Assembly (NCBI RefSeq): GCF_002091985.1 | Contig: NZ_MKKX01000035.1 | Coordinates: 1 to 64,000, forward strand | Reading direction: 5' to 3' | DNA length: 64,000 nt | From: Rhodococcus sp. 1163 | GTDB lineage: Bacteria; Actinomycetota; Actinomycetes; Mycobacteriales; Mycobacteriaceae | Shown here: one piece after another, positions 4,261 through 56,165 of the stretch | How the letters are laid out: the number at the start of each line of letters is the position of its first letter | Numbering within the stretch: position 1 is the stretch's first letter | Position numbers and translations under genes: made by a program | The notes under the pieces: generated by a model | The model's input: the letters and a program-made list of their open reading frames with translations, nothing else | What the model was told of the DNA's origin: nothing | The model's database searches: none

Positions 4261-6324
4261 ATGAGACGAGCGCTCGGCACGGCCTTCGAAGGCGTACTGG
4301 CCGCTCTCGTTGCAGCAATTGTTGCAACGGTCGGGTTGTATGCCTTCTCACTCGTCGAGTGGCCGGCATTCAACTCGTCCAACGTCACTCGCGCCGTGAC
4401 GACCCTCGGCCAGGTCGCCTGCGCCATCGCGTTCGCAGTGGCCATCGTGCTCTACCGTCGAGGAAAACTCGAATGGTTGGCGAAGTCGCTGACATGGGTC
4501 GGGCTGTCCGGATTCGTGACGATCACTCTCGGAATGCCGCTGGCCGCAACCAAGCTGTACTTGTTCGGCGTCTCCGTCGACCAGGAGTTCCGGACCGAAT
4601 ACCTGACGCGGCTCACCGACTCGGCCGCACTCCGCGACATGACGTACGCGGACATCCCGCCCTTCTACCCCGCGGGATGGTTCTGGCTGGGCGGACGCGT
4701 CGGAAACCTGCTCGGCATGGATGGCTGGGAAGTGTTCAAGCCGTTCGCAATCGGATTCCTCGCCGTCACTGCGGTGCTGGCATTCACGTTATGGAAAGCA
4801 CTCGTGCGGGTCGACTGGGCCGTGGCCGTCAGCGCAGTGACAACTGCACTGGTCGTCGCCTATGCATCTCCCGAGGCATACAGCGCGGTCATCGCCCTGC
4901 TGATCGCGCCGGCACTCCTGTTGGCCTGGGGTGCGCTGAACAGACCGGTGGCTTCCGGTGTCAGCGGGCGCTTGAATGGCGCGCTCAAGCCATCTGATCG
5001 TATGAATGGACCATTGAAGCGGTCGGAGGGTGCGACCGAACCCCAGCGGTCGGAGGGTGCGACCGAGCCCCAGCGGTCGGAGGGTGCGACCGAGCCCCAG
5101 CGGTCGGAGGGTGCGACCGAACCCCAGCGGTCGGGGGGTACGGGCTCCTGGGGATGGGGAGCGGTCGTGGGCACGGGCCTGTTCCTCGGCCTGGCCGCCA
5201 CTTTCTACACCCTCTATCTGGGTCTGGCTGCGTTCGCGGTCACGCTGATGGCCGTCGTATCGACGATCTTGGGTATCCGGGCCCAGAAGAGCTGGCGCGC
5301 GGCGATTCCTGTTGCCGTCCGGCTCTTCGCCATCGCGGCTATCTCCGGTCTCGTTGCGCTGACCGTGTGGCTCCCGTATTTGGTGGACGCTCTGACCGGG
5401 ACTCCGTCGACGTCGGGAACCGCTTTGCACTACCTCCCGGAGGCCGGCGCGACCCTGCCGTTTCCGATGTTGCAGTTCTCGTTGGTCGGCGCACTGTGTC
5501 TCACGGGGACGGTGTGGCTCGCCGTGCGGGCGGCGTCTTCGCGTCGCGCCCAGGCGTTGGGCATCGGCGTCGTCGCGGTCTATCTGTGGACGCTTCTGTC
5601 GATGGCTGCCACTGTCGCGGGCACGACGCTACTGTCGTTCCGGCTCGAAGCCGTTCTGATCGTATTACTGGGCGCAGCAGGCGTTTTTGGCTTCCTCGAA
5701 GGAACCAAAGCGATCTACCAGGCGATCAACGAACCGTCACGGTTCAAGATTGCCGCTGTCGTGATCGCGGCCGTCGGGGCAATGGCATTCGCACAGAGCA
5801 TTCCGCAGATCCTGCAGACCGAGATCACCGTCGCCTACTCCGATACCGACGGTGACGGCGTGCGCGCCGACAAGCGTCCGCCGAGCGCGGTGTCGTACTA
5901 CAGCGACATCGACGCCGCCATCCGCGAGCAGATCGGCAGGCCCCGGGACGAGACCATCGTGTTGACCGCCGACACGTCGTTCCTGAGCTACTACTCGTAC
6001 TTCGGGTTCCAAGGCCTGACCTCGCACTATGCGAATCCGCTCGCCCAGTTCGACGAGCGCGCTGCAGCTATCGCCGACTGGGCGACGCTCGAGACTCCGG
6101 ACGAACTGCTCGCGGCCATGGACGGAAGTGCATGGGCCGCGCCGGATGCGTTCCTGTTCCGACGCGGGGCAGAGGGTTACACCCTGCGATTGGCCGAGGA
6201 CGTGTACCCGAACGATCCGAACGTGCGCCGCTACACCGTCACTTTCGACGAATCGTTGTTCGAGGATCAACGATTCACCGTCACCGACATCGGTCCGTTT
6301 GCCCTGGTCACCCGCAACACCTAG
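4261..6324 (+). CDS. aftA: Arabinofuranosyltransferase AftA with repeat-derived insertion
   Basis: Transfers the first arabinofuranose from decaprenyl-phosphoryl-arabinose to galactan, at the outer face of the membrane. It is a GT-C type polytopic protein with many hydrophobic helices and a soluble C-terminal domain; the conserved VDQEFRTEYL loop is near residue 110. The frame starts on the base after the dprE2 stop. At 687 residues it is longer than Rv3792 (643). The excess is explained by residues 237-289: an 18-residue segment RLNGALKPSDRMNGPLKR encoded by a copy of the palindromic repeat found elsewhere in the window, then four copies of RSEGATEPQ. The insert falls in a hydrophilic loop between helices, so the enzyme is probably still active. 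Confidence 0.94.
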   Translation: MRRALGTAFEGVLAALVAAIVATVGLYAFSLVEWPAFNSSNVTRAVTTLGQVACAIAFAVAIVLYRRGKLEWLAKSLTWVGLSGFVTITLGMPLAATKLYLFGVSVDQEFRTEYLTRLTDSAALRDMTYADIPPFYPAGWFWLGGRVGNLLGMDGWEVFKPFAIGFLAVTAVLAFTLWKALVRVDWAVAVSAVTTALVVAYASPEAYSAVIALLIAPALLLAWGALNRPVASGVSGRLNGALKPSDRMNGPLKRSEGATEPQRSEGATEPQRSEGATEPQRSEGATEPQRSGGTGSWGWGAVVGTGLFLGLAATFYTLYLGLAAFAVTLMAVVSTILGIRAQKSWRAAIPVAVRLFAIAAISGLVALTVWLPYLVDALTGTPSTSGTALHYLPEAGATLPFPMLQFSLVGALCLTGTVWLAVRAASSRRAQALGIGVVAVYLWTLLSMAATVAGTTLLSFRLEAVLIVLLGAAGVFGFLEGTKAIYQAINEPSRFKIAAVVIAAVGAMAFAQSIPQILQTEITVAYSDTDGDGVRADKRPPSAVSYYSDIDAAIREQIGRPRDETIVLTADTSFLSYYSYFGFQGLTSHYANPLAQFDERAAAIADWATLETPDELLAAMDGSAWAAPDAFLFRRGAEGYTLRLAEDVYPNDPNVRRYTVTFDESLFEDQRFTVTDIGPFALVTRNT
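4969..5021 (+). repeat. Palindromic repeat copy 1, inside aftA
   Basis: Begins CGCTTGAATGG and ends with CCATTGAAGCG, with the invariant core CTGATCGTATGAATGG between. It starts exactly on codon 237 of aftA and contains no stop in that frame, so it is translated. A 27-bp tandem array follows directly. Confidence 0.9.
5020..5145 (+). repeat. 27-bp tandem repeat encoding (RSEGATEPQ)4
   Basis: Four head-to-tail 27-bp units encode RSEGATEPQ, followed by a degraded fifth unit (RSGGTG). The unit is a multiple of three, so copy-number change would keep the aftA frame. It lies on the CCATTNAAGCG side of the palindromic repeat, as GC-rich arrays do at other copies. Confidence 0.92.
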
Positions 6325-6345
6325 AAGAATCACATAACGTTCACG

Positions 6346-6351
6346 TAACGT
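6346..6351 (+). promoter_or_regulatory. Putative -10 box, leaderless start at 6360
   Basis: TAACGT is followed by 8 nt and the ATG at 6360. A second, similar block (ATAACGT) lies just upstream. Confidence 0.45.
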
Positions 6352-6359
6352 GCAGCGCG

Positions 6360-8165
6360 ATGACAAACACCGATCGGACCGTGCTCGAGCAGCCGCAGAC
6401 TGCCCCCGCGTCGAAACGCGGGTCGATCTCGACGCGTGTGCGCACTGTGCTGATCTCGCGCGTGGACCGCGCCGACGTGGCTTCTGCCTCGTTGTTCGCG
6501 GTCCTCGCACTGTTCGTCATGCAGGGGCAATGGCGCAACCTCAGCAATGGATACCTCTACAACAGTGGCCAGGATCAGGCCATGTGGGAGTGGTTCCTCT
6601 CCGTCGCCGCGCACTCGGTCGCCCATCTCGACAACCCGCTGTGGAGTGATCTGCAGAATTACCCCGCGGGCGTCAACATGATGGCGAACACCGCGATGTT
6701 CGGTTTGTCGATCCCATTGGCGCCGATCACTTTGTTGTTCGGCCCGACGGTGACCTGGACGATCGGGCTCACCGTCGGTCTCGCCGGTACGGCCTATGCC
6801 TGGTATTGGTTGTTTGCGCGCAGATTGGGCGCATCGCGCGGCGCATCCGCCTTGGGCGGTGCACTCTGCGGCTTCGCCCCTGCCATGGTCTCGCACGCCA
6901 ACGGTCATCCGAACTTCGTCGTCCTGTTCCTGCTGCCGGTGATTGCCTCGATGGTCATCCGCATCGCGCACGACGGCCCGACGGCAAAGCGGACGATCGC
7001 CCTCGGACTCGTCGTTGCGCTGCAGATCTTGCTCGGCGAAGAACCATTGCTGATCTTCGCGATCTCGTTCGGAATCTTCGTCGCCGTTTTCTACCTCGGC
7101 AACCCTCGAAGCATCGTGTCGGCGGTCGCCAACGCGGCCAAGAGCCTGCCGGTCGCAGCCGTCATCGCCGTCGCACTCGTTGCTGTTCCGCTGTGGTGGC
7201 AGTTCTTCGGTCCGCAAAGTTACTCGTTCATCGAGCACGGCAACATGGGCAACGACGCCAAAGCCCTCTTCCAGTTCCCGACGCAGTCCATCGGCGGAAA
7301 GGTGACGCCAGGCCAGGACGTGCGCATCAATGCCACCGAGGAGAACGCCTATCTCGGTTGGCCGTTGCTCGTACTGTGTCTCGGCGCGACGGTGTGGATG
7401 TGGCGCGACGCCCGAGTGCGAGCAGCTGCCGCGACCACGATCGTCATGGGCGTCCTTTCACTCGGAACCTCGCTGTACATCGGCAAGAACGACACCGGAA
7501 TCGAACTTCCGTGGAAGTGGTTCGCGGAGGCCCCGCTCGTCGAATCCGTGTTGGAAACTCGATTCGTCCTCGGCGCGGTGCCCGCACTCGCGCTGATCCT
7601 GGTATTGGCCACCGACAAGGCATTCGGACGCGGACTTCGCCCCCTACCGGGCCTGTGGTCGATCGCGTTGGCGCTCGCTCTCGTCCCGTTGTTCCCGATG
7701 CCGTTGCAGGCGGTGGAGAGAACCCCGACGCCGGCATTCTTCGCCGACGGCGAATGGCGGGACTACCTCGACGGCGGTTCGATCGTCACCGTCCCGCTAC
7801 CTCGACCCGAGGACGCCCGTCCGCTGCTGTGGCAGATCGACGCCGGGATGGGCTTCCCGCTGGCCGCGGGCTACTTCGTCGGACCGAGCGAGCACGTGGA
7901 CAAGAAGGCGAAATACGGTGCCGTCGACCGAAGGACCGCACTTCTGCTGGGTTCGGTACAGAACTCCGGCACGGTCCCTGACATCACCGCCGAGCAGAAG
8001 AAACAGGCCATCGAAGATCTGGACTACTGGAACGCCGACGTAGTCGTGCTTCCGCCGGGAAAGAACAACAGGGCATTGCGTGCGACCGTCGATACTCTCC
8101 TGAGCACCCAAGCCCAGTTCCACGGTGGGGTGTGGGTCTGGGACGTGCGTGCGCTCACACCCTGA
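6360..8165 (+). CDS. GT-C-like polytopic membrane protein, function unknown
   Basis: A 601-residue membrane protein with a short cytoplasmic N-terminus, about ten hydrophobic helices and a soluble C-terminal part. The first large loop holds NSGQDQAMWEWF (near residue 69) and further on YPAGVNMM, a layout like that of GT-C glycosyltransferases, where an acidic pair in the first outer loop binds the polyprenyl-phosphate sugar. It lies between aftA and the emb genes, a place with no equivalent gene in M. tuberculosis, so a role in decorating arabinan or another envelope glycan is a reasonable inference. The ATG at 6360 was chosen because of its spacing to TAACGT. Substrate and linkage cannot be read from the sequence. 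Confidence 0.7.
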   Translation: MTNTDRTVLEQPQTAPASKRGSISTRVRTVLISRVDRADVASASLFAVLALFVMQGQWRNLSNGYLYNSGQDQAMWEWFLSVAAHSVAHLDNPLWSDLQNYPAGVNMMANTAMFGLSIPLAPITLLFGPTVTWTIGLTVGLAGTAYAWYWLFARRLGASRGASALGGALCGFAPAMVSHANGHPNFVVLFLLPVIASMVIRIAHDGPTAKRTIALGLVVALQILLGEEPLLIFAISFGIFVAVFYLGNPRSIVSAVANAAKSLPVAAVIAVALVAVPLWWQFFGPQSYSFIEHGNMGNDAKALFQFPTQSIGGKVTPGQDVRINATEENAYLGWPLLVLCLGATVWMWRDARVRAAAATTIVMGVLSLGTSLYIGKNDTGIELPWKWFAEAPLVESVLETRFVLGAVPALALILVLATDKAFGRGLRPLPGLWSIALALALVPLFPMPLQAVERTPTPAFFADGEWRDYLDGGSIVTVPLPRPEDARPLLWQIDAGMGFPLAAGYFVGPSEHVDKKAKYGAVDRRTALLLGSVQNSGTVPDITAEQKKQAIEDLDYWNADVVVLPPGKNNRALRATVDTLLSTQAQFHGGVWVWDVRALTP

Positions 8166-8199
8166 CCTGCACGAAACCAGTGGCGGTGTGATGGTGCAA

Positions 8200-8205
8200 T
8201 AGCAT
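8200..8205 (+). promoter_or_regulatory. Putative -10 box, leaderless start of first emb gene
   Basis: TAGCAT lies 8 nt before the GTG at 8214, and there is no Shine-Dalgarno sequence between them. Confidence 0.5.
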
Positions 8206-8213
8206 GGGCAATC

Positions 8214-11426: not shown

Positions 11427-11484
11427 AACGGGTATCTTCCCGGTTCTTTCACCATGCGAATGCGGTGAACCGATAGCGCTCGCA

Positions 11485-11498: not shown

Positions 11499-14400
11499 GT
11501 GCCCGACGCCGTGACAGATTCTTCCGCCGTGCCCTCCGCCTCACCGAGGAAGGGCTCTGCGGTCGATCTTCGATCCCAGGTGCGCACCACGCGCCTGGTT
11601 GCCATCATCACCGGGCTGCTCGGCGCATTTCTCGCGGTCCTGACCCCGTTTCTTCCGGTCGTGCAGACCACCTCGACGATCAACTGGCCCGAGGCCGGTT
11701 CTCTGCAGGACATCGACGCGCCGCTCGTGTCACAGGCTCCCATCGCCTTCACCGCGAGCATCCCGTGCAGCGCCGTCGCACAGCTACCGCCGTCGGGTGG
11801 CCTCCTGCTGGCTACCGCACCGCCGCAAGGTGAGGGGGCAGCGCTCAACAGCCTCTTCGTGCGTGTCAGCGAGACGTCCGTCGACGTCTTGGACCGCAAC
11901 GTAGTCGTCGCCACAGCACCGCGTGCGGACGTCCAGGGCGCCGCATGTGGCTCCATCGAGATCACCTCGAACATCGACTCGACGACGGCCGAGTTCACCG
12001 GCCTGTCCGACAAGCAGGGCAATCCGCGCTCCGGACGTCTCGACGGCGACTTACGTCCCCAGGTCGTCGGAATCTTCACCGACCTCTCCGGCGCCGCCCC
12101 TGCAGGACTATCGGCGACAATCGACGTCGACTCGCGGTTCTCCTCCAGCCCGACGATTCTCAAACTGCTCGCGATGATCCTGGCGGTCGTCTGCACCATC
12201 CTCGCCGTGGGCGCGCTCGGGCGACTCGACGGCATCGACGGCCGCGGTCACCGCCGCTTCTTCCCGTCGAACTGGTGGAAGTTCACCGGCATCGACGTCA
12301 CGGTCATCGGAGTCTTGATCGGCTGGCACTTCGTCGGAGCAAATACCTCCGACGACGGCTACCTGCTGACCATGGCCCGTGCGGCCGAGAAGTCCGGCTA
12401 CATGGCCAACTACTTCCGGTGGTTCGGCGTCCCCGAGGCGCCGTTCGGCTGGTACTACGACGTCCTCGCACTGTTCGCCAAGGTGTCCACGGCCAGCCCC
12501 TGGATCCGCCTACCCGCATTGATCGCCGGAATCCTGTGCTGGATGGTCATCAGCCGCGAGGTCGTTCCGCGCCTGGGTCGCGCGGTACGCAAATCGAACG
12601 TCGCACTGTGGACCGGTGGTCTGGTGTTCCTCGCGTTCTGGTTGCCGTACAACAACGGACTGCGCCCGGAGCCGATCGTCGCCGTCGGTGCGCTGCTCAC
12701 CTGGTGCTCGATCGAACGCTCCATCGCAACCGGACGACTGCTACCCGCGGCCGCCGCCTTCTTGATCGGCGCATTCACACTCGCTGCCGCACCTACCGGA
12801 TTGATGTGTGTCGCTGCACTGTTGGCAGGCGCACGGCCCATGGCTCGCATCGTCGTTCGACGTCATCGCCAAGTCGGTACGTTGGCACTCGTCGCGCCAC
12901 TTGCGGCAGCAGGATTCCTCGTTCTCGTCGTCGTCTTCGCCGACCAGACCTTCGCCACCGTCATCGAATCCACCCGAGTCCGCACAGCCATCGGCCCGAG
13001 CGAGGCGTGGTACCAGGACTTCCTGCGCTACTACTACCTGTTCGTTCAGACCGTGGACGGTTCCGTCGCACGCCGATTCGCGTTCCTGGTGATGCTGCTG
13101 TGCCTGTTCTCGACACTGTTCATCCTGCTGCGACGTCGACGCGTCCCCGGCATCGCCAATGGACCCGCATGGCGCCTCATCGGAGTCGTATTCGGAACCA
13201 TCTTCTTCATGATGTTCAACCCGACCAAGTGGACACACCACTTCGGTTCCTACGCGGGCATCGCCGGTAGCCTCGCGGCGCTGACAGCCGTCGCAATCTC
13301 GGCAAGCGCACTCCGATCGCGAAGAAATCGCACGATCTTCCTCGCCGGGCTGATGTTCGTTCTCGCACTGGCATTCTCGGGCATCAACGGTTACTGGTAC
13401 GTCTCGAGCTACGGCGTCCCATGGTTCGACAAGACCGTGTCCCTCGCCGGCAACGAATCCGGAACACTGTTCCTCGTCCTGTTCGCGCTCGCCTTGGCTC
13501 TCGCCGCCTGGCAGTACCTCAGGGAGGGATACGCGCCACCGCAACCACGAGCCACCAGCGAACGCGGCAGACGCATCAAGAAATTCGCCGCAGCGCCGCT
13601 CACCGTCGTCGCCGGACTCATGGTTCTCTTCGAAGTACTCTCCCTCGTCAAGGGAGCCGTATCGCAGTACCCCGCATACTCACTGGCGCGATCCAATATC
13701 GAATCACTGACCGGAAAAAGTTGCGGTTTGGCCACCGACGTTCTCGTCGAATCGGATCCCAACGCCGGAGTCCTCGACCCGATCCCCGCCGGCTTCGACC
13801 CCGAAACCGGCCCCCTCGGTGGCGAAGACCCCTCCAACTTCACTGCCAACGGCATTCCCACCGACCTCAGCGCCGACGCCGTGGAAGTCAAACCAGGACA
13901 AGGCAATACCGACCAGCAGAGCGTCGGACCGGCCTTCGAAGAGGGCCAGAGCTCCGGAACCGGAGGCGGCATCGGCGCCCGCGGCATCAACGGATCCACC
14001 GCCGCACTCCCCTTCGGACTCGACCCCGCCACCACCCCGGTCCTCGGCTCCTACCAACCCGGAATCCAGGAACCCGCGTCGGCGACGTCGAGCTGGTACG
14101 CACTCCCCGAAAGGTCCGACACCGCACCACTGATCGTCATCTCCGCCGCCGGACGCATCCTGTCGTTCGACGACACCGGCGCACTGACCTACGGGCAGTC
14201 CCTCCTCGTGGAGTACGGCGCGCGCCAACCCGACGGAACGATCGACGTCCAAGGCACCTACCTGCCCCGCGACATCGGACCCGCACCGTCGTGGCGCAAC
14301 CTCCGCATCCCCATCGCGGACCTACCCGAAGGCGCCGACGCCGTACGCATCGTGGCCAACGACCCCAACCTCACCGGCGACCAATGGTTCGCGTTCACCC

Positions 14401-14810
14401 CGCCGCGAGTACCGCAGCTCGAAACGCTCAACAGCCTCATCGGCAGCGAACAACCCGTCCTCCTCGACTGGGCCGTCGGACTCCAATTCCCATGCCAGCG
14501 CCCCTTCGACCACCAATACGGCGTCGCCGAAGTACCGAACTACCGCATCCTCCCCGACCGCGCACTGGCCGTCAGCTCCACCGACACCTGGCAGTCCGGG
14601 GACAACGGCGGCCCCCTCGGCTGGGCCGAACTCCTCGCCAAGCCCGTCACCGTTCCCACCTACCTGGACCGCGACTGGGCCCGCGACTGGGGCTCCCTCG
14701 AACGCTACGACCAGTACTACCCACAGGCAGTCCCACCGACCATCGACACCTCCGAGGTCACCAGGTCGGGCCTCTGGACTCCCGGGAATCTGCGGGTGTT
14801 CGACAAGTAG
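11499..14810 (+). CDS. emb: Arabinosyltransferase Emb, second copy
   Basis: A 1,103-residue Emb arabinosyltransferase, paralogous to the gene before it. The catalytic acidic pair in NTSDDGYLLTMARA is Asp285-Asp286, followed by GYMANYFRWFGVPEAPFG and the helix block, then a long extracytoplasmic C-terminal part with the two carbohydrate-binding-like lobes. By hand alignment the position of Met306 in M. tuberculosis EmbB, the main ethambutol resistance site, is Phe326 here (in ALFAKVS) and Phe309 in the first copy. GTG start. Together the two copies replace the embCAB trio of mycobacteria. A repeat-rich region starts 35 nt beyond the stop. Confidence 0.93.
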   Translation: MPDAVTDSSAVPSASPRKGSAVDLRSQVRTTRLVAIITGLLGAFLAVLTPFLPVVQTTSTINWPEAGSLQDIDAPLVSQAPIAFTASIPCSAVAQLPPSGGLLLATAPPQGEGAALNSLFVRVSETSVDVLDRNVVVATAPRADVQGAACGSIEITSNIDSTTAEFTGLSDKQGNPRSGRLDGDLRPQVVGIFTDLSGAAPAGLSATIDVDSRFSSSPTILKLLAMILAVVCTILAVGALGRLDGIDGRGHRRFFPSNWWKFTGIDVTVIGVLIGWHFVGANTSDDGYLLTMARAAEKSGYMANYFRWFGVPEAPFGWYYDVLALFAKVSTASPWIRLPALIAGILCWMVISREVVPRLGRAVRKSNVALWTGGLVFLAFWLPYNNGLRPEPIVAVGALLTWCSIERSIATGRLLPAAAAFLIGAFTLAAAPTGLMCVAALLAGARPMARIVVRRHRQVGTLALVAPLAAAGFLVLVVVFADQTFATVIESTRVRTAIGPSEAWYQDFLRYYYLFVQTVDGSVARRFAFLVMLLCLFSTLFILLRRRRVPGIANGPAWRLIGVVFGTIFFMMFNPTKWTHHFGSYAGIAGSLAALTAVAISASALRSRRNRTIFLAGLMFVLALAFSGINGYWYVSSYGVPWFDKTVSLAGNESGTLFLVLFALALALAAWQYLREGYAPPQPRATSERGRRIKKFAAAPLTVVAGLMVLFEVLSLVKGAVSQYPAYSLARSNIESLTGKSCGLATDVLVESDPNAGVLDPIPAGFDPETGPLGGEDPSNFTANGIPTDLSADAVEVKPGQGNTDQQSVGPAFEEGQSSGTGGGIGARGINGSTAALPFGLDPATTPVLGSYQPGIQEPASATSSWYALPERSDTAPLIVISAAGRILSFDDTGALTYGQSLLVEYGARQPDGTIDVQGTYLPRDIGPAPSWRNLRIPIADLPEGADAVRIVANDPNLTGDQWFAFTPPRVPQLETLNSLIGSEQPVLLDWAVGLQFPCQRPFDHQYGVAEVPNYRILPDRALAVSSTDTWQSGDNGGPLGWAELLAKPVTVPTYLDRDWARDWGSLERYDQYYPQAVPPTIDTSEVTRSGLWTPGNLRVFDK

Positions 14811-14845: not shown

Positions 14846-14898
14846 CGCTTCAATGGTCCACTCATACGATCAGATAACTTCGGGGCACCATTCAAGCA
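14846..14898 (-). repeat. Palindromic repeat copy 2
   Basis: In reverse orientation: CGCTTCAATGG on the left, the core as ATACGATCAG, and CCATTCAAGCA on the right. It lies 35 nt after the second emb gene and forms a direct tandem pair with copy 3. Confidence 0.9.
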
Positions 14899-14942: not shown

Positions 14943-14995
14943 CGCTTCAATGGTCCACTCATACGATCAGATAGCTTCGGGGCGCCATTCAAGCA
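14943..14995 (-). repeat. Palindromic repeat copy 3
   Basis: Same orientation as copy 2 and differing from it at only a few bases, all in the less conserved half. Confidence 0.9.
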
Positions 14996-15186: not shown

Positions 15187-16137
15187 ATGAAACGCGGTAG
15201 CTGGGCAACGAACCGGTACATCCTGGACGGCGCATCACTCAATGGCGTCATCACCCGTCGGGCACTTCGACAATGCGGAGTGTCGGACGGGTCCATTACT
15301 CTGAGAACTTCCGACGGCGGCAAATGGCGTCGAATACTGCCGGGAATCATCCTGTTGCACAACGGCAGTCCCACGCTTCTACAACAACAATCTGCCGCCT
15401 TGCTGTACGGCGGCGAACAGAGCATGCTCACCGGCGGAACCGCCGTCATGCAGCACGGCTTCGACCGTGTCGGCGGCGACGTCCACATCCTCGTTCCGGC
15501 GACCATGCGTCGAGCATCGTCGTCGTTCGTACGTGTCGAGCGGACTCACCGACTACCGAAACCACTGCATCGTGGTCGCTTGGCCGTGGCGCCGCTACCG
15601 CGTGCGCTCGTCGACAGCGCGCGTGCACTGCGAAATACCGGCGCCTGCACTCGCCTGTTCGCGGAAGCTGTACAACGCGGTGCGGCCGATCTCGACGAGA
15701 TAGTCCGCGAACTCAGGGAGGGCCCCCGACGTCACGGCGCTGTCGGTTGGGCAGCGGCGAGCGAGCTCGCCGACGATGCACATTCCGTTGCCGAGGTTCA
15801 GGCTCAGAGGCTCTACGTCACCTCTGGCCTTCCGAAAATGGTCCACAACCGCGACATCCTCGACGCCGACGGCAGATTCCTCGGACGACCCGACGGCTGG
15901 ATAGATTCTGTCGGGTTCGGTTGGCAGATAGACTCGTTCGCCCATCATCTGAGCCCAGCCGACCATGCCAAGACTCTGAGACGTCGAGCGGACATGGAAA
16001 GAATCGGAATCATCGTGGTGGCGCACCTGCCGAAGCAGATCAGAGACGATCCGTCAGGGGTACTGGACGACCTTCGAGCCGGCTACGCCCGTGCACTTGC
16101 CCGCCCGCGCCCACCCGTGCACACCGCCCAAGCATGA
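15187..16137 (+). CDS. AbiEi-like winged-helix / DUF559-type nuclease-like protein
   Basis: A 316-residue protein with an N-terminal part like the AbiEi antitoxin family (GVITRRALRQCGVSDGSIT as a likely winged helix, then the LTGGTAVMQHGFD segment) and a C-terminal part resembling DUF559/Vsr-type endonuclease folds (RPDGWIDSVGFGWQIDSFAHH). In many relatives the strand carries EVDS; here it reads QIDS, so one acidic residue may be lost. The frame is open to 14899, but the ATG at 15187 gives the compact domain and avoids translating repeat DNA. Its stop codon TGA (16135-16137) is supplied by repeat copy 4. It lies between inverted repeat pairs and has no partner toxin gene beside it. Role unknown; defence or regulation is a guess. 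Confidence 0.65.
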   Translation: MKRGSWATNRYILDGASLNGVITRRALRQCGVSDGSITLRTSDGGKWRRILPGIILLHNGSPTLLQQQSAALLYGGEQSMLTGGTAVMQHGFDRVGGDVHILVPATMRRASSSFVRVERTHRLPKPLHRGRLAVAPLPRALVDSARALRNTGACTRLFAEAVQRGAADLDEIVRELREGPRRHGAVGWAAASELADDAHSVAEVQAQRLYVTSGLPKMVHNRDILDADGRFLGRPDGWIDSVGFGWQIDSFAHHLSPADHAKTLRRRADMERIGIIVVAHLPKQIRDDPSGVLDDLRAGYARALARPRPPVHTAQA

Positions 16138-16183
16138 ATGGCGCACCCAAGCTAACTGATCGTATGAATGGACCATTCAAGCG
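16132..16183 (+). repeat. Palindromic repeat copy 4
   Basis: Forward orientation, inverted relative to copies 2 and 3. Its left end is GCATGAATGG rather than CGCTTGAATGG, and the TGA inside it is the stop codon of the preceding gene. Confidence 0.88.
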
Positions 16184-16238
16184 AAAGTGCGGACACCACA
16201 ACCGCACCCGCCCGCGCCCACCTGTGCACATCGCCCAA

Positions 16239-16290
16239 GTATGAATGGCGCACCCAAGCTAACTGATCGTATGAATGGACCATTCAAGCG
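16239..16290 (+). repeat. Palindromic repeat copy 5
   Basis: Nearly identical to copy 4, 107 bp downstream. It ends 27 nt before the accD4 stop codon on the other strand. Confidence 0.88.
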
Positions 16291-16317: not shown

Positions 16318-17862
16318 TTAGATAGGAAGCAGATGATGCTTCCGCGGATTCTTGAACACCTCTTTGTTCTCGAGCAACTTGAGTGCTTTGCGTAGTTCGA
16401 GGCGCGTCTGGGACGGTTCGATGACGGCATCGATGTAACCGCGTTCGGCTGCGACCCATGGCGTTGCGACGTGCTCGTTGTAGAAGTTGATGAGCTGCGC
16501 TCGCACTGCCGGGGCGTTGTCTCCTGCCGCGGCGAGTTGTTTGCGGCCGATGATGTTGACGGCACCCTCTGCGCCCATGACGGCGATACGGCCGGTGGGC
16601 CAGGCGAAGTTGATGTCCGCACCCAATTGCTTGCAGCCCATGACTGCGTAGCCACCACCGTAGGCTTTGCGAACCACGACGGTGACCTTGGGAACCGATG
16701 CTTCGATGTAGGAGAACAGGAATCGTCCGCCGCGCTTGATGACGCCGACTTTCTCCTGGTCGACGCCGGGCAGGAAGCCTGGGGTGTCGACGATGAAGAC
16801 GAGCGGGATGTTGTATGCGTCGCAAATCCGGATGAAGCGTGCTGCTTTGTCCGAGCCGTCGGCGTCGAGTGCTCCGGACAGGAACATCGGCTGATTGGCG
16901 ACGACGCCGACCGATTTGCCGTCGACGCGGGTGAGTCCGGTGATGACGTTCGGTGCGATGCCCGTGGACATCTCGTGGAATTCGCCGTCGTCGAACATGC
17001 GAAGGATGATGTCGTGCATGTCGTAGCCGGCGTTGTCGGCGTCGGGCATGACCTTGTCCAGTAACAGGTCCGACTCGGTGATCTCGGGCTCGATACCCGG
17101 ATTGACTACGGGCGGGTCTTCCTGGCAGCTCGACGGCATGTAGCTCAGGTAGTTCCGTACCCAGGCGAAAGCTGCTTCTTCGTCCACGGCAACGTGGTGG
17201 ACGTTGCCGTATTCGGCCTGCTTGCGTGCACTTCCGAGTTCGTCGAGGCTGACATCCTCTCCGGTGACGGACTTGATGACGTCCGGCCCGGTGACGAACA
17301 TGTACGCCTCTTCGGTGGCGACGACGACATCGGTGTTGATGGGTGCGTAGACGGCGCCGCCTGCACACTTGCCGAGGATGATCGATACCTGCGGGCACAT
17401 GCCGGACAACGGCTCGTGCCGACGGCCGAGCTCGGCGTACCACGCGAGAGAGGTGACGGCATCCTGCACGCGCGCGCCGCCGGAGTCGTTGATTCCGATG
17501 ACCGGGCAACCGACCTTGATCGCGAAGTCCATGATGCCCGCAACCTTGCGGCCGAACATCTCGCCGACGGTGCCGCCGAAGACGGTCTGATCGTGGGAGA
17601 ACACGGCAACCGGTCGCCCGTCGATGGTGCCGTGCCCGGTGACCACGCCGTCGCTGTACAGCGCGGTGGGATCGTTCGGAGCCTTGACCAGTGCACCGAT
17701 CTCGATGAAGCTGCCCGGGTCCAGTAGCGAGTCCACGCGTTGTCGAGCGCTCGGGATGCCCTTCTTTGCCCGCTTGGCGATACCTATCTCACCTGCCGGC
17801 TCCTTGGCGAGTTCGAGGTTGGCACGCAGATCGGCCAACTTTTCGGCGGTGGTACCACTCAA
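16318..17862 (-). CDS. accD4: Acyl-CoA carboxylase beta subunit AccD4
   Basis: Carboxyltransferase subunit that, with AccA3 and AccD5 in mycobacteria, makes the carboxylated long-chain acyl-CoA that Pks13 condenses with the meromycolate. The 514 residues show the crotonase-fold signatures [12 protein letters not shown] (acyl-CoA oxyanion region) and, in the C-terminal half, VDTPGFLPG and [11 protein letters not shown]. The start is an unusual TTG: it overlaps the pks13 stop as TTGA and has a strong AGGAG about 8 nt upstream, and no ATG or GTG fits. It is the last gene of fadD32-pks13-accD4, the mycolate condensation operon. Confidence 0.95.
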
Positions 17863-38761: not shown

Positions 38762-38763
38762 TC

Positions 38764-49306: not shown

Positions 49307-49327
49307 CAACCAGAGACAGCATCTGAC

Positions 49328-49355: not shown

Positions 49356-49375
49356 GCAGGTCGCGTGCTTAGGCT

Positions 49376-50128: not shown

Positions 50129-50136
50129 AATCGGCT

Positions 50137-50142
50137 AGCGTA
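50137..50142 (-). promoter_or_regulatory. Putative -10 box, leaderless start of plsC-like gene
   Basis: On the minus strand TACGCT is followed by 8 nt and the GTG at 50128. Confidence 0.45.
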
Positions 50143-50191
50143 GTCGCTGCAAGACCCAGGGGAGAAGACGCAGTCGGAAGGTCAGCTGTAG

Positions 50192-51037
50192 ATGAGTTCG
50201 CGTAGAGGCATCGTTTTCGCAAGTGTGGGACTGTTCGGGGCAGTTCTCACGCTCACCGCATGTGGGGGTGACGGCCAACAGGGCATTCCCACCGAGACAC
50301 GCTCGGCAACGGCTACGACAACGCCGCCCGCCACCACACCACCCTCGACCACACCACCGCCCTCCACCACACCTTCACCGGTGGGCCCGGCCGTCGGCGA
50401 AGTTCCCACGAACCCCGAGGCCACCAGAGCCTTACGGGCATTCCTCACCGACCTCGATGCAGGCGGCGTCCCTGCGGTAACGGCGAAGTGCTGGACTGTC
50501 CCGCCGTCAGAGGTCCCAGCCCGCTACAGCGACGTCGCATCGATCCTCGACGCCGCCGCAGTCCCCGGCGGCGACGGGCAATACGCGGTCACCTGGAGTA
50601 GCCCAGCCATCACACTCAGCGTCAAACGCAGCGAGATCGCCTCCGGGTATGCGTGTCCGGCGGTACTTCCGGGGGGCTCGTCCGGCGCTTACACGGACAC
50701 CGAAGCCGAATACACCGTCGAGCGGTATCTCGGCCGCTTCACGGGCACCCCGGTGAACCCCGCCGACCTAGAAGGCGACTACCCGCTCGTATGCGACACC
50801 CGGGCCATCTGGGACCCGCAGCGCACGGGCGCGGCGACCACGGCGCCATTGGCAAACAATCCCGGCCGGCTGACCGGATCGGCGTCGTACAAACCGGACA
50901 GCGTCTATGTTGCCGCCAACGACGGCGAGTACACCACGGTCTACGCCGACGTCACCGACGTGTCCGGTGTCGAACAGAACCGGATCTTCACCCTGACGAT
51001 CGGGTCCAACGGTTACTGCATCGGTGACGTCGTGTGA
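50192..51037 (+). CDS. Predicted lipoprotein of unknown function
   Basis: Exported lipoprotein of 281 residues: a short signal peptide with lipobox LTAC (Cys near residue 24), a Thr/Pro-rich linker (to about 65), then a globular domain of about 210 residues with several cysteines (AKCWTVPP, SGYACPAV, YPLVCDTR, NGYCIGDV) that could form disulfides. I do not recognise the domain. ATG start with GGAAGG upstream. It is followed by a GC-rich array and a palindromic repeat. Confidence 0.78.
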   Translation: MSSRRGIVFASVGLFGAVLTLTACGGDGQQGIPTETRSATATTTPPATTPPSTTPPPSTTPSPVGPAVGEVPTNPEATRALRAFLTDLDAGGVPAVTAKCWTVPPSEVPARYSDVASILDAAAVPGGDGQYAVTWSSPAITLSVKRSEIASGYACPAVLPGGSSGAYTDTEAEYTVERYLGRFTGTPVNPADLEGDYPLVCDTRAIWDPQRTGAATTAPLANNPGRLTGSASYKPDSVYVAANDGEYTTVYADVTDVSGVEQNRIFTLTIGSNGYCIGDVV

Positions 51038-51049
51038 GGGTGCCGGCGC

Positions 51050-51114
51050 CCGCTCGCCCGTGTCCCCGCCCGCCCGTGTCCCCGCTCGCCCGCTCGCCCG
51101 TGTCCCCGCCCGCC
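51050..51114. repeat. GC-rich tandem array next to repeat copy 6
   Basis: Three copies of GCCCGTGTCCCCGC with shorter CGCCCG units between them. The array touches the conserved end of palindromic repeat copy 6. Confidence 0.75.
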
Positions 51115-51168
51115 CGCTTGAATGGTCCATTCATACGATCAGTTAGCTTCAGGGCGCCGTTCATGCGG
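51115..51168 (-). repeat. Palindromic repeat copy 6
   Basis: Reverse orientation, CGCTTGAATGG on the left and a diverged right end (CCGTTCATGCG). It lies 77 nt beyond the lipoprotein stop and 38 nt before the next GTG start. Confidence 0.88.
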
Positions 51169-51206
51169 TCGGGTGCACACATATCTGCGCGACGGGGAGG
51201 AAATCT

Positions 51207-51635
51207 GTGACAACTCTGGGCATCGACACCAAGGTTCTATTGCTGCTTTCGGGACTGATTCTGCTCTGGGCGTTGGCGCTGGGGGTATGGAAATTCCGAC
51301 AGATGGCAACATCGCCGACGGCTCTGGCGCACCCGTACGTCGACATCGCGCACCGTGCGGCGCTGATGTACTCGTTCGCGACACTCGTCCTCGCCGCACT
51401 CACCGAATTCAGCTCGTTCCCGACGGCGGTGAACCTCACGGCCGGTCTGGTCGCCGTCTTCTTCTTCGTCGCCGCCATCGGAAGCTACATGGTGCACGGA
51501 TTTTTGAAGGACACCGACAATCAATTCGAGCATCCGGTCCGCGGGACCCACGCTTTCATGTGGGCGCTGATCGTTGGCGAAATCGGCGGGACGGCCGTTC
51601 TGGTCGCCGGTTTCGTTGTGGGACAGTTCTTCTGA
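51207..51635 (+). CDS. Small integral membrane protein, unknown function
   Basis: A 142-residue protein with four hydrophobic helices (about residues 8-28, 50-66, 74-95 and 118-140) and a His in each of two short loops (AHPYVDIAHR, EHPVRGTHAF). I do not recognise a named family. GTG start supported by GGGGAGG with 6 nt spacing. Its stop codon is followed after 1 nt by palindromic repeat copy 7. Confidence 0.75.
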   Translation: MTTLGIDTKVLLLLSGLILLWALALGVWKFRQMATSPTALAHPYVDIAHRAALMYSFATLVLAALTEFSSFPTAVNLTAGLVAVFFFVAAIGSYMVHGFLKDTDNQFEHPVRGTHAFMWALIVGEIGGTAVLVAGFVVGQFF

Positions 51636-51636
51636 C

Positions 51637-51689
51637 CGCTTCAATGGTCCATTCATACGATCAGATATCTTGAAGCGGCCATTCAAGCG
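51637..51689 (-). repeat. Palindromic repeat copy 7
   Basis: Starts 1 nt after a TGA stop codon, with CGCTTCAATGG on the left and CCATTCAAGCG on the right. It lies just upstream of the -10-like box for the next gene. Confidence 0.9.
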
Positions 51690-51700
51690 CCCGACCCAAC

Positions 51701-51706
51701 TACTCT
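51701..51706 (+). promoter_or_regulatory. Putative -10 box, leaderless start of the oxidoreductase gene
   Basis: TACTCT lies 7 nt before the ATG at 51714, and there is no Shine-Dalgarno sequence. Confidence 0.5.
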
Positions 51707-51713
51707 CTAACCC

Positions 51714-52964
51714 ATGACACACGTGGTGGTCGCTGGTGCGGGCCTGGGCGGAATTGCCTGCGCACACGAATTGGCGCGCAAAGGTGTTTCCGTCACCATC
51801 GTCGACCGCAACGATTACCACCAGTTCCAACCGTTGCTCTATCAGGTTGCGACGGCGCAGTTGCCTGCCGCCGACGTCGCACGACCGCTCGCAACGATCT
51901 TCGAGAGCTTCGAGAATGTCCGAGTGGTTCAGGCAGAGATCAGCACCCTGGATTTCGCCTCGCTGTCACTCACCGCCGCGGGCGAGAAGATCTCGGGCGA
52001 CTATCTCGTCGTCGCGGCTGGAGCGCGCGCCAACTTCTTCGGAACGCCCGGCGCAGAGGAATTTTCGTTCCCGCTGTACTCCGTCGCCGACGCCGAGAAG
52101 CTTCGTCACCACGTCAGCGAGGTGCTGCGCGGTGAACACGATCCACTCGACGTCGTCATCGTCGGAGGCGGACCGACCGGCGTCGAGACCGCGGGCGCCT
52201 TCGCCGAGCTGTTCACCGCTCTGCGCAAGATGAATCACCCAGGCGGTCGCGGGGAGGCCTGGCTCATCAACCACGGGCCGTCATTGCTGGCGCCGTTCAG
52301 CGAACGCTCGCATGTCTACGCACACGACAAGCTGGTCGAACACGGCGCGAAAGTTCGCCTCGGGGTCGGCGTAACCGCAGTCGATGCCGGTGGCGTCGTG
52401 CTCAGTGACTCCACCCGAATCGACTCGCGGACCGTCATCTGGGCCGGCGGCGAATCGGCGGCACCGTTGGCCGCGACCGGCGACGCGAAGCCCGGGCCCG
52501 GCGGACGACTCGACGTACTGGCCGATCTCACGGTCCCCAGGTTCGACAATGTCTACGCCGTCGGCGACGTGGCGAACATTACCGACGTGGACGGAAAGAC
52601 GTTGCCCCAGTTGGGTTCGGTCGCTCAGCAAGCAGGGACCTGGGCCGCCCACAACATTATGCTGACCATCGCGGGAAAACATCGGAAGGTCTTCCAGTAC
52701 AAGGACAAGGGCATCATGGCGATGATCGGCCGCGGGGCCGCCGTCGCAGAGGTCGGCGCGCACCGACATCAGGTGGAGGGACCGCTCGCGTTCGCGGCGT
52801 GGCTCGGCGTCCATGCCGCACTACTGAGCGGCGCGCACAGCAAAGTCGACGCGTTCCTGTCCTGGGCATGGGACTACTTCGACAGCGATCACGCCGCGAT
52901 CGTCGAGTGCCACGGCAATCCGAAGCGAATCGCCTGGGCCGACGACGTGAAGCCGACCATCTGA
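51714..52964 (+). CDS. NAD(P)/FAD-dependent oxidoreductase, NDH-2-like
   Basis: Flavoprotein of 416 residues related to type II NADH dehydrogenases. FAD-binding loop VVAGAGLGGIACAHEL near the start, the DYHQFQPLLYQVAT segment, NAD-binding VVIVGGGPTGVETAGAFAEL near residue 145, VYAVGDVANI near 280 and LPQLGSVAQQAGTWAAHNI. The C-terminal half has amphipathic rather than clear transmembrane helices, as in NDH-2, which binds the membrane and passes electrons to quinones. Quinone reduction is an inference. Convergent with serS, 7 nt away. Confidence 0.88.
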   Translation: MTHVVVAGAGLGGIACAHELARKGVSVTIVDRNDYHQFQPLLYQVATAQLPAADVARPLATIFESFENVRVVQAEISTLDFASLSLTAAGEKISGDYLVVAAGARANFFGTPGAEEFSFPLYSVADAEKLRHHVSEVLRGEHDPLDVVIVGGGPTGVETAGAFAELFTALRKMNHPGGRGEAWLINHGPSLLAPFSERSHVYAHDKLVEHGAKVRLGVGVTAVDAGGVVLSDSTRIDSRTVIWAGGESAAPLAATGDAKPGPGGRLDVLADLTVPRFDNVYAVGDVANITDVDGKTLPQLGSVAQQAGTWAAHNIMLTIAGKHRKVFQYKDKGIMAMIGRGAAVAEVGAHRHQVEGPLAFAAWLGVHAALLSGAHSKVDAFLSWAWDYFDSDHAAIVECHGNPKRIAWADDVKPTI

Positions 52965-52971
52965 CACGGTT

Positions 52972-54225
52972 CTAGCGCAGAACATCCGTTCCGACGAACG
53001 GCACCAAAGCTTCCGGCACCCGAACGGTCCCGTCGGCCTGCTGGTGATTCTCCAGGATCGCCACGATCCACCGCGTCGTGGCCAACGTTCCGTTCAGAGT
53101 CGCAGCAATCTGCGGCTTGCCGTTGTCATCGCGGTACCGAACATTGAGGCGCCGGGCCTGGAAGGTCGTGCAGTTCGACGTCGAGGTCAGCTCGCGGTAG
53201 GCATTCTGCGTCGGCACCCAAGCCTCGCAGTCGAACTTGCGCGCCGCCGAGGACCCGAGATCGCCACCGGCGACATCGATGATTCGGTACGGAAGTTCCA
53301 CTGCCGCAAGCATTTCGCGTTCGAACTCAAGGAACTTGCGATGCTCGGCCGCTGCGTCCTCGGGCTTGATGTAGGAAAACATCTCGATCTTGTCGAACTG
53401 GTGGACGCGGATGATCCCGCGAGTGTCCTTGCCGTACGAACCCGCTTCGCGACGAAAGCACGTCGACCAGCCCGCGTAGCGCTTCGGGCCGTCGGACAGG
53501 TCGAGGATCTCGCCTGCGTGGTACCCGGCCAGCGCAACTTCCGACGTGCCGACGAGATATAGATCGTCGGCTTCGAGTCGGTAGATCTCATCGGCGTGCG
53601 CGCCCAGGAATCCGGTTCCCGCCATGATCTCCGGCCGCACCACCACCGGCGGGATCATCATAGTGAACCCGTTCTTGACGGCCTTCTGCGCTGCCAACTG
53701 CAACATGCCCTGCTGCAGCAACGCGCCGTAACCGGTCATGAAGTAGAACCGCGAACCCGACACCTTCGCGCCGCGTTCCATGTCGATCAGCTTCAGCGAC
53801 TCACCGAGCTCGAGGTGGTCCTTCGGCTCGAAGTCGAACGTCGGGATCTCACCGACGGTTTCCATCAACACGAAGTCGTCTTCGCCGCCGGCGGGAGCTC
53901 CCTCTTCGACGACGTTCGACAAGGCGCGTTGCGCGCTGTCCACCGCGGCATCTGCCTCGTTCTGGCGCGCCTCCGCAGCCTTGACCTTCGCCGCCAGTTC
54001 GGACGACCCTGCCAGCAACGCAGGACGCTCCTCCGCCGACGCCTTCCCGACGCGTTTGCCGAGGGCCTTCTGCTCGGCGCGGAGCTGATCGCCGGCAAGC
54101 ACTGCGGCTCGTCGGGACGCATCGGCGTCGAGCAGCACGTCGACGAGCGCGGGATCTTCTCCACGGGTGCGCTGTGAGGCACGGACGACATCGGGATTCT
54201 CACGAAGAAACTTCAGGTCGATCAC
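52972..54225 (-). CDS. serS: Seryl-tRNA synthetase SerS
   Basis: Class II aminoacyl-tRNA synthetase of 417 residues. N-terminal coiled-coil arm (about residues 30-105) that binds tRNA-Ser; catalytic domain with motif 2 ([26 protein letters not shown]) split across residues near 265-290 and motif 3 [17 protein letters not shown] near the end; GTSEVAL is also present. GTG start at 54225 gives the family N-terminus (IDLKFLREN) and follows TAAGGT by 7 nt; AAGG in the same element could also serve as a weak ribosome site. Same neighbours as Rv3834c in M. tuberculosis. Confidence 0.97.
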
Positions 54226-54232
54226 GAGGAAA

Positions 54233-54238
54233 ACCTTA
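54233..54238 (-). promoter_or_regulatory. Putative -10 box of serS
   Basis: On the minus strand TAAGGT is followed by 7 nt and GTG. It overlaps the end of the ankyrin gene, so serS may also be read from further upstream. Confidence 0.35.
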
Positions 54239-54631
54239 CTTGCCGAGCAAGCCCAGGTAGTCCTCGCGTCCGAACATGCGCGCCGCGTCGATCGCCGACG
54301 GATGGCCGCCGTGCGGATCCGCTCCACCCTCGACCAGCTCTCGCACCACCTCGTCCTCTCCCTTGAAGACCGCGCCTGCGAGCGGCGTCTGGCCCTTTTC
54401 GTTCGGCCGATTCACATCCGCACCCTTGCCGACCAGCATGCGCACAGTGTGCGGGTGACCGTGATAGGCCGCCAGCATGACCAGGGTGTCCCCCGCCTCG
54501 TTGTTGAGGTCGACCGGCACTCCGGCGTCCAGATATGTCTTCAACGACTCGGCATCACCGTCGCGGGCCATCGTGAACAGTCGGCCCGCAAGCTCGGCGA
54601 TGTCAGCACTGGTCTCATCGGGGTCTGTCAT
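54236..54631 (-). CDS. Small ankyrin-repeat protein
   Basis: A 131-residue cytoplasmic protein made of about three ankyrin repeats: [40 protein letters not shown] and the adjoining half-units, preceded by an acidic N-terminal helix. Ankyrin repeats bind other proteins; no partner can be named, though it lies tight against serS (10 nt). ATG at 54631 gives the whole domain and sits 8 nt after TATCTT. Divergent from the septum-formation-like gene, with overlapping -10-like hexamers. Confidence 0.88.
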
Positions 54632-54639
54632 AGGAACCG

Positions 54640-54645
54640 AAGATA
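54640..54645 (-). promoter_or_regulatory. Putative -10 box, leaderless start of ankyrin gene
   Basis: On the minus strand TATCTT is 8 nt before the ATG at 54631. On the plus strand the overlapping GATACT (54642-54647) is 5 nt before ATG 54653 and 8 nt before ATG 54656. Confidence 0.4.
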
Positions 54646-54652
54646 CTCGGGC

Positions 54653-55756
54653 ATGATGGAGTTGATGTCCACCAGCGATCCGGCCCGGCCGGGGAAACCC
54701 ACAACGACACGCAACCCGCGCACAGTGTCGGCGCACGTTGCGCGCCGGGGACTCGCCTTTATCGCGGTGGGGGCCGTCGCGGCTGCTGCGATCACGCTCT
54801 CGGTGTCCGGTGGCTTCTCGCAACCGGAGAAGATCGCCACCCACTCGGCCAGCGGGCCTGCGACGTCAGGTCCCGTCACGGCCAAGACGTTCGGCTCGGC
54901 CGATCCAGGCACGTGCCTGCAGTGGACGCCGACCGAAGACCCCGAGACCGACCGACAGGACCTCGCCGAAGTCTCCTGCGCCGATCCACATCGATTCGAA
55001 GTAGCAGCCGACGTCGATCTGAGTGCCTATCCCGGGCTCGAATTCGCTCCGAACTCGGTGTATCCGGGCGCGCAACGGTTCGGGCAGCTTCGTGACGAGC
55101 ATTGCGTCGGTGCCGTCGACGACTATTTGGGTGCCAAGTTCGATCCGAGTGGCAAGTTCAGTGTCGGCCTGATGTTCCCCAGCCAAGCAGGATGGGCCTC
55201 GGGCGAACGGACGTTGCGGTGTGGAATCCAGAAGTCCACGAACACGGGAATTCCGCAGGAGATGACCGGCTCGGTGCTCGACCTGGATCAGTCGAACGTA
55301 TGGGAGCCCGGCACCTGCATCGGCATCCTGCAGAACGTGCCCGCCGATCCGGTCGACTGCAGCGCGCCCCACGCCTTCGAGGTCGTCTCCGTCGCAGACC
55401 TGAGCCAACAGTTTCCGAACGGAATTCCCAACGAGGCCGACCAGGACGCCTACCTCACGACGGTCTGCACCGACGCCGTGAACGCATACCTCGGCTCCCC
55501 TACCGCGCTGCGAGACAAGACGCTGACGCTGTTCTGGGACAACATCGACGTCACCAGTTGGCTGGCTGGTAGCCGTCAGGTCAGCTGTTCGATAGGCAGT
55601 GAGCTCGACACGGGCGGATTCGCGACGATCGTCGGATCCGCACAGGGCGACATCCTCATCAACGGTCAACCGCCGGTACCGCCGCCTTCGGCCCCGGACG
55701 GTCGGGCGCTTCCGAAGCCGCTGCCCGGTGCGGCCCCGATCACATCGGGGGGATGA
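54653..55756 (+). CDS. Septum-formation-like membrane-anchored protein (Rv3835-like)
   Basis: A 367-residue protein with a short cytoplasmic N-terminus, one membrane helix (about residues 32-52, LAFIAVGAVAAAAITLSV) and an extracytoplasmic domain with paired cysteines in two similar halves (GTCLQWTP/VSCADPHRFEV and GTCIGILQ/VDCSAPHAFEVV). This is the pattern of the septum-formation domain family; the precise role is not established. Three ATGs (54653, 54656, 54665) lie close together; the first is used. The next gene starts 13 nt past its stop, as Rv3836 follows Rv3835. Confidence 0.86.
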   Translation: MMELMSTSDPARPGKPTTTRNPRTVSAHVARRGLAFIAVGAVAAAAITLSVSGGFSQPEKIATHSASGPATSGPVTAKTFGSADPGTCLQWTPTEDPETDRQDLAEVSCADPHRFEVAADVDLSAYPGLEFAPNSVYPGAQRFGQLRDEHCVGAVDDYLGAKFDPSGKFSVGLMFPSQAGWASGERTLRCGIQKSTNTGIPQEMTGSVLDLDQSNVWEPGTCIGILQNVPADPVDCSAPHAFEVVSVADLSQQFPNGIPNEADQDAYLTTVCTDAVNAYLGSPTALRDKTLTLFWDNIDVTSWLAGSRQVSCSIGSELDTGGFATIVGSAQGDILINGQPPVPPPSAPDGRALPKPLPGAAPITSGG

Positions 55757-55769
55757 CATTCCCACCGAC

Positions 55770-56102
55770 ATGAGCCGCGCCGACTTCGAAAACGCCGTCG
55801 GCGACGCCCTCGACACGCTTCCACCGGACATCACCGACCGCATGGACAACGTCGTCATTCTCGTCGAGGAAGAGCACCCCACCGAGAACATCCTCGGCCT
55901 GTACGAGGGGGTCGCGCTCACCGACCGCTACGAGTACAGCGGGCACCTACCGGACGTCATCACCATCTACCGTCGTCCGATTCTGGATATGGTCGACGAC
56001 GCCGAGACCGCCCGACGAGAGATCGCGATCACCGTCGCCCACGAGGTGGGGCACCATTTCGGCATCGACGACGAGCGCTTGCACGAGCTGGGTTTCGGGT
56101 AG
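55770..56102 (+). CDS. Zincin-like metallopeptidase-family protein (Rv3836-like)
   Basis: A 110-residue protein with the zinc-binding HEVGHHFGIDDERLHELG motif near its C-terminus and the ITIYRRPILDM segment before it, typical of the small minimal-zincin family. Such proteins are widespread in actinomycetes but no substrate is known. ATG 55770 gives an N-terminus like Rv3836 (MSRADFENAV). It follows the septum-formation-like gene by 13 nt and is followed by palindromic repeat copy 8 after 9 nt. Confidence 0.88.
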   Translation: MSRADFENAVGDALDTLPPDITDRMDNVVILVEEEHPTENILGLYEGVALTDRYEYSGHLPDVITIYRRPILDMVDDAETARREIAITVAHEVGHHFGIDDERLHELGFG

Positions 56103-56111
56103 TTTGCCCAC

Positions 56112-56165
56112 CGCTTGAATGGTCGATTTCAAGACATCTGATCGTATGAATGGACCATTCAAGCG
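56112..56165 (+). repeat. Palindromic repeat copy 8
   Basis: Forward orientation with perfect 11-bp ends, CGCTTGAATGG and CCATTCAAGCG. It begins 9 nt beyond a stop codon and is followed by a 20-bp tandem array. Confidence 0.92.

Follow-up and report, generated by a model that had tools for sequence, protein, structure and literature searches.

Several kinds of dispersed repeat in bacterial genomes offer a comparison for the element described here. The MIRU of mycobacteria are units of 77-101 bp that are dispersed near gene ends and change in tandem copy number, and the Rickettsia palindromic elements (RPEs) are palindromic inserts that are read in frame in protein genes. REPINs are described as inverted pairs of palindromes that are mostly extragenic, occur in tandem clusters with flanks and form long-lived populations (PMC3116915, PMC8049555, PMC6006769), and their tandem clusters are said to take in the flanks (PMC3116915). 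A 2021 model paper presented REPINs as, to its authors' knowledge, the sole intragenomic sequence population that prokaryotes stably maintain, and tied them to RAYTs (PMC8049555). REPs have also been reported between convergent genes and as targets of insertion sequences (PMC1525189). The CGTC-tagged REPs, which include Neisseria dRS3 and Rickettsia RPE-4 and RPE-6, were reported to have no dedicated transposase, to form dimers commonly and to be intragenic in some cases (PMC3733652); the main text of that paper holds no word starting with Actinobacteria or Rhodococcus.

The DNA analysed here, referred to as the window, is a stretch of 64,000 nucleotides from Rhodococcus sp. 1163. A first-pass annotation had reported eight palindromic repeats of about 52 bp in it, which it likened to REP or MITE elements. 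With a probability of roughly 0.55, we read these repeats as members of a REPIN-like population of non-autonomous palindromic elements, to which no enzyme could be linked. The features of the window that bear on this reading are the following.

4261..6324, plus strand: aftA ORF that carries copy 1 (Pfam AftA_N and AftA_C)
4969..5021, plus strand: copy 1, a 53-bp element in frame within the aftA reading frame
5018..5152, plus strand: 27-bp tandem repeat of about five units, from the end of copy 1 and within the aftA frame too
14846..14898, minus strand: copy 2, first of a direct tandem pair with a 97-bp period, 3' of ORF 11499-14810, which we take to be emb
14943..14995, minus strand: copy 3, second of the pair with the 97-bp period
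16131..16183, plus strand: copy 4, first of a tandem pair with a 107-bp period, at a convergent junction
16238..16290, plus strand: copy 5, second of the pair with the 107-bp period, 27 bases off the end of the carboxyltransferase ORF 16318-17862
51115..51167, minus strand: copy 6, found in all five genomes aligned there (G000, G031, G029, G020 and G001)
51637..51689, minus strand: copy 7, beginning directly past the stop codon of ORF 51207-51635
56112..56165, plus strand: copy 8, 54 bp, at a convergent junction, with the most stable fold among the five window copies tested
56171..56243, plus strand: 20-bp tandem repeat adjoining copy 8

The core CTGATCGTATGARTGG had eight exact matches in the window and one site with two mismatches at 5656; nine matches were reached by none of 100 dinucleotide shuffles, for which the mean was 0.77. 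R1, a covariance model made from 39 selected copies that represent several dialects, returned 16 hits within the window at E <=1, and these were the same eight places, each on both strands. The eight reported copies were thus recovered by both searches, and the covariance model found no further ones. The unit measures 53 bp rather than about 52 bp, and 54 bp at 56112. It begins with CGCTTGAATGG, runs through a variable stretch into the core CTGATCGTATGAATGG and, after an A, ends in CCATTCAAGCG; the right half is nearly a palindrome by itself, and its outer 11 bases pair with the left half. The description of copies in both orientations, with one almost invariant and one variable half, was borne out. 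Twelve invariant columns were present in alignment A1, which comprised 65 host-dialect copies from several genomes, picked in register. Fixing the distance to the left end had yielded 124 copies, from which 70 diverse ones were taken; five off-register, 54-bp or odd rows were then set aside, and A1 is free of gaps partly because its rows were so chosen. A looser pattern that allowed lengths of 49-56 bp was applied to the fetched loci and returned 53 bp in 132 of 140 unique hits, 54 bp in seven and 51 bp in one; it had 240 hits in the real loci versus 0.4 in loci shuffled to preserve base content only. Rfam at gathering scores placed no family in the window, and the annotation's statement that no published description was known agrees with our search of titles and abstract openings in the open-access literature, which found none.

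Pfam supported AftA, carboxyltransferase and polyketide synthase domains among the window genes, some of which are presumably accD4 and Pks13. The ORF at 15187-16137, between the emb-like and carboxyltransferase genes, had no Pfam match and is flanked by two inverted element pairs. Copies often stood in direct tandem, and by BLAST the place of copy 3 held three element copies in G001 and four in G020. Other short tandem repeats were seen beside elements: one of 16-24 bp spans 51047-51116, at or near an element end, and 19-bp units adjoin an element copy in locus L023. The elements may act as seeds of local tandem duplication.

The annotation had named confinement to the window as a finding that would refute its claim. 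In the host assembly, G000 (43 contigs, 4.46 Mb in total), the core had 32 matches with at most two mismatches, and the reversed control gave none. Among 61 genomes the host-dialect core was matched in 19, all within the genus; ten of these, the host included, held 27-46 copies and the other nine held 1-5. An exact-pattern scan of GTDB genomes, in which records near the host may be missing, returned 48 stretches, every one titled Rhodococcus or Rhodococcoides. The palindrome TGAATGGNCCATTCA was present in 29 of 37 genus genomes versus 1 of 114 others, and one 56-base query and one exact pattern had no match in plasmids, phages or viral contigs. Among the places listed, simulation detected a depleted arc of the chromosome in G006 (p = 0.0008) and no significant one in G022 (p = 0.20).

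Genus genomes poor in host-dialect copies were found to carry other dialects with the layout unchanged, and the proposed search of other Rhodococcus genomes revealed a superfamily. With strict filters and the best 52 candidates at most scored, R1 matched 30 of the 37 genus genomes, with 16 to 52 matches each; under the same filters G002, G005, G015, G016, G023, G034 and G036 had none. Outside the genus, strict filters left matches in 7 of 74 genomes, six with one or two and G059 with 43. When 150 candidates were scored the totals were 77 in G000, 85 in G006, 76 in G022 and 44 in G059, and since such totals often count both strands of one place, the places are fewer. G059 belongs to a different family of the host's order. 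At seven of its loci, ten units were made up of two 21-base palindromes of type GCNTSAACGTNACGTTSANGC with a 30-base spacing. A further model, R2, contains G059 copies by construction and matched 27 of 397 genomes of the order (14 candidates scored in each), 18 of them in family f14. The f14 matches were long hairpins or palindrome arrays, several with the motif TGAACGGNCCGTTCA, and may be either homologous to the genus element or convergent with it. Loci L359-L378, mostly from f14, showed long hairpin repeats of their own, for example one with a 25-bp stem starting CGCGTGAAGGCCCCC, and by eye some of these hairpins lie directly past a TGA.

Covariation was assessed in two alignments of 53-bp rows. 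For A2, 40 rows were picked after a pattern search or inspection by eye, and all but L082 were used, which left 39; A3 comprised 41 rows chosen from R1 matches, G059 and A2. A2 is the cleaner test, because R1, the source of most genus rows in A3, already incorporated the hairpin structure. A 20-bp hairpin was maintained across dialects through paired changes: A2 had 81 double-change cells versus 49.9 in shuffles and a score of 0.231 versus 0.130, and A3 had 118 versus 47.6 and 0.382 versus 0.162. None of 500 shuffles, which leave the relatedness of the rows in place, was as high on either measure in either alignment. In both, all five measures fell when the partner was slid by 1-3 columns. Pair 4-50, for instance, occurs as UA, AU or GC, and pair 19-35 as CG or AU. 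Neither the count of pairs carrying double changes (442 of 500 shuffles as high for A2, 345 for A3) nor that of pair types (257 and 82 of 500) exceeded the shuffles. Covariation within the host dialect alone was weak and close to shuffles, and RNAalifold on A1 gave eight pairs, one of them with a double change. Five window copies folded as DNA had z values of -0.3 to -1.2 (three copies), -3.4 and -5.3, two copies from other genus genomes had -5.9 and -10.7, one G059 copy had -7.4 and one f14 copy had -11.7. The hairpin is weak in the host dialect, which thus seems to have one decayed arm; such decay would account for the invariant and variable halves that had been noticed first.

Gene context was classified with a simple codon-score ORF caller, by which 20 of 22 host sites were assigned: 11 convergent, seven tandem, one divergent and one inside a gene, so that 19 of the 20 are extragenic by this caller. 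Convergent junctions made up 11 of 20 host sites versus 7 of 48 window junctions (binomial 3e-5, Fisher 0.0011); the deficit of divergent sites was not significant (0.19). Among 35 loci of other genus genomes, which were top model hits and in part represent one orthologous place, 14 were convergent, 18 tandem, none divergent, one inside a gene and two unclear. The ten G059 units comprised four convergent, five tandem and one divergent. At the 51637 site the element starts directly after a TGA, and in G001, judged by eye, its far end seems to adjoin the stop codon of the gene that faces it; 4 of 15 loci compared for this site lacked an anchor. Right beside copy 7, G001 (L166) has about 2 kb that are absent from the host at window position 51690, and a deletion may therefore have ended at the element.

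Placement past stop codons and at convergent junctions, together with the paired changes along the arms and the stable folds of the two copies from other genus genomes, would suit functional 3'-end hairpins, that is terminators or stabilisers of RNA ends that were duplicated and then selected for RNA structure. We consider this explanation improbable. The host dialect has no U-tract: of 65 copies, none had TTTT on the 3' side and one had it on the other side, and the flanks are G-rich. At the L245 site the element comes, by eye, after a terminator-like hairpin with a T run, and the lack of R1 matches in seven genus genomes also speaks against such a function. In addition, terminators lying in frame within aftA, as the elements do in 14 of 19 genomes, would be expected to truncate their own gene.

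The aftA locus was fetched from 30 genomes and translated in 19, printing the frame with the fewest stops; the flanking AftA protein confirmed that this is the gene's frame. The 14 genomes just counted read through the insert without a stop, and the inserted peptides reflect each genome's own dialect (LNGALKPSDRMNGPLKRS in G000, MNGPSQRSDGSNGPLMP in G021). In G026 the insert was present and the sequence beyond it was damaged; this locus (L143) contains a run of N followed by letters that, by their look, we take to be a sequencing-library adapter, so that this stretch of the G026 draft is unreliable. Among the 19 translated genomes, G028, G004, G022 and G024 had no insert. R1 confirmed the inserts of G021, G026, G030, G010 and G011 (E 1e-18 to 7e-8) and yielded nothing convincing in the aftA of the four genomes without one, where the one match had an E of 0.81. 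Relative to the gene, the elements of those five R1-confirmed genomes lie in the orientation opposite to that of the host-dialect element. The site was therefore probably hit, or flipped, more than once, and the opposite orientations fit separate insertions rather than replacement in place.

Comparison of orthologous sites revealed both persistence and turnover. When 23 G031 loci were compared with G000, no fewer than 20 had a filled counterpart there, and 15 orthologous copies that passed a 53-bp filter differed by 0.053 versus 0.19 for unrelated copies. Movement must accordingly be slow or stopped, and no transposition event was seen in the compared loci. For G006, again 23 loci were compared: at least 10 were common to G000 and the remainder were unmatched. 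The 11 orthologous copies of G000 and G006 had a distance of 0.170 versus 0.173 among unrelated copies within G006. Near species share sites, and farther apart orthologs are no closer than unrelated copies of the same genome. The string TATGGAT was present in 17 of 29 G006 copies versus 0 of 28 G000 copies, shared places included. Three sites were occupied by elements in several clades, each clade with its own dialect. The carboxyltransferase junction, inspected by eye in 30 genus genomes, had two elements in 18, one in five, a longer or different palindrome in five and none in two (G004 and G024); the elements at this junction were in clade-specific dialects. Four genomes (L120, L124, L128 and L130) had a longer, different palindromic arrangement at this junction, GCAACAAAG or similar. 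A tree built on a 961-base segment of one gene, with many weak forks, intermixed element-rich and element-poor genomes.

The invariant columns, and the dialects that lineages show at orthologous places, could also reflect dyad-symmetric binding sites for a host protein, such as a nucleoid protein, a gyrase-type enzyme or a regulator, with the dialects arising by coevolution with that protein. The convergent bias would fit the supercoiling argument made for REPs (PMC1525189). We regard binding sites as an unlikely explanation as well: positions turn over, as the unmatched G006 loci show, and such sites would need neither tandem growth nor an insert in aftA.

A site that is empty in G004 and filled in its sister G028 (L245) provided one clean pair, and the joint carries no duplication over 2 bp. 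The site seems empty in G021 too; because outgroups are filled, the difference between the sisters is more likely a loss. G006 site L269, sought as a recent insertion, gave no clean empty and filled pair. These comparisons bear on a classical MITE of a DDE transposon that is now lost, a reading that would account for inverted ends, the lack of a coding region and dispersal. It is highly improbable in our estimation, given the clean pair without a target duplication over 2 bp, the polarity of which suggests loss, and given that the loci read held no transposon with such ends. Four places between paired copies were read and had no autonomous partner with matching ends. Three of them (L222, L223 and L224) contained ordinary ORFs, among them two short-chain dehydrogenases in L222, the one place where Pfam confirmed the genes. 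The REP half of the first comparison is supported, by paired inverted palindromes, dispersal, mostly extragenic position near gene ends, tandem clusters and a hairpin kept across dialects, and the MITE half is not supported. The fourth place, in G011, has a transposase gene (L225:1641-2930) in the middle of an element, with CTG on both sides; Pfam names rve and helix-turn-helix domains in it, and from the domains and the 3-base duplication we read it as a putative IS30 family member.

A RAYT had been suggested as the shared transposase. Among 61 genomes searched, PF01797 was absent from the host, from the nine other host-dialect-rich genomes and from G059. It was present in one of the 37 genus genomes, G019, which is rich in another dialect (51 R1 matches). 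The 3.4-kb locus of the G019 Y1_Tnp gene had no core palindrome at up to four mismatches and no long palindrome, and at loci L100 and L101, from other families, no element-like palindrome pair lay beside the PF01797 gene. The GT[AG]G tag was found in 1 of 65 host-dialect copies and at the outer ends of 0 of 39 A2 and 0 of 41 A3 rows. CGTC was present in the centre of none of the 65 host-dialect rows, and a single central CGTC, not one per palindrome, occurred in 13 of 39 A2 and 22 of 41 A3 rows, in non-host dialects. Within the six outermost bases, CGTC or GACG occurred in 2 of 65 host-dialect, 6 of 39 A2 and 16 of 41 A3 rows.

On the REPIN-like reading, the two inverted halves of the 53-bp unit can fold, in RNA or in single-stranded DNA, into either a single long hairpin or a pair of short ones, and a trans-acting enzyme recognising the hairpin would copy the units. 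Inserts would be tolerated mostly past stop codons, or within a protein loop if they keep the frame, and old copies would be lost, replaced or newly inserted in the lineage's current dialect. More tentatively, and at well under even odds, the elements may belong to an order-wide class of intragenomic hairpin populations that are copied and homogenised by a hairpin-recognising enzyme other than a Y1 RAYT, with dialects succeeding one another at conserved landing places that include the in-frame site in aftA, a cell-wall gene. A population comparable to that of the REPINs is found here in a genus of actinobacteria, and of its 30 genomes matched by R1, 29 have no Y1_Tnp match. With complete genomes, landing places and clear dialects, it lets one ask what copies such repeats without a RAYT.

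Compared with described systems, the element is like the MIRU in its dispersed units near gene ends and its tandem copy-number change, a likeness at the level of description; the MIRU units, at 77-101 bp, are longer. It resembles the RPEs in having a palindromic insert in frame in a protein gene, aftA, which is a likeness of placement; most host copies, unlike RPEs, are extragenic. With the CGTC-tagged REPs it shares the lack of a dedicated transposase, dimers and some intragenic copies; a central CGTC stands in part of the rows from non-host dialects and is absent from the centre of the host dialect. The transposase gene inside one G011 element recalls REPs as targets of insertion sequences. 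REPINs and BIMEs, mobilised by RAYT (TnpA-REP), are alike in the inverted palindrome pair that forms a hairpin, in mostly extragenic position, in tandem clusters that take in flanks and in long-lived populations, and differ in that the element has no GT[AG]G tag and the ten host-dialect-rich genomes have no Y1_Tnp gene. Because two defining features were tested and found absent, we describe the element as REPIN-like in its working and do not file it as a REPIN; MITE, terminator and binding site all fit the evidence less well than a REPIN-like population.
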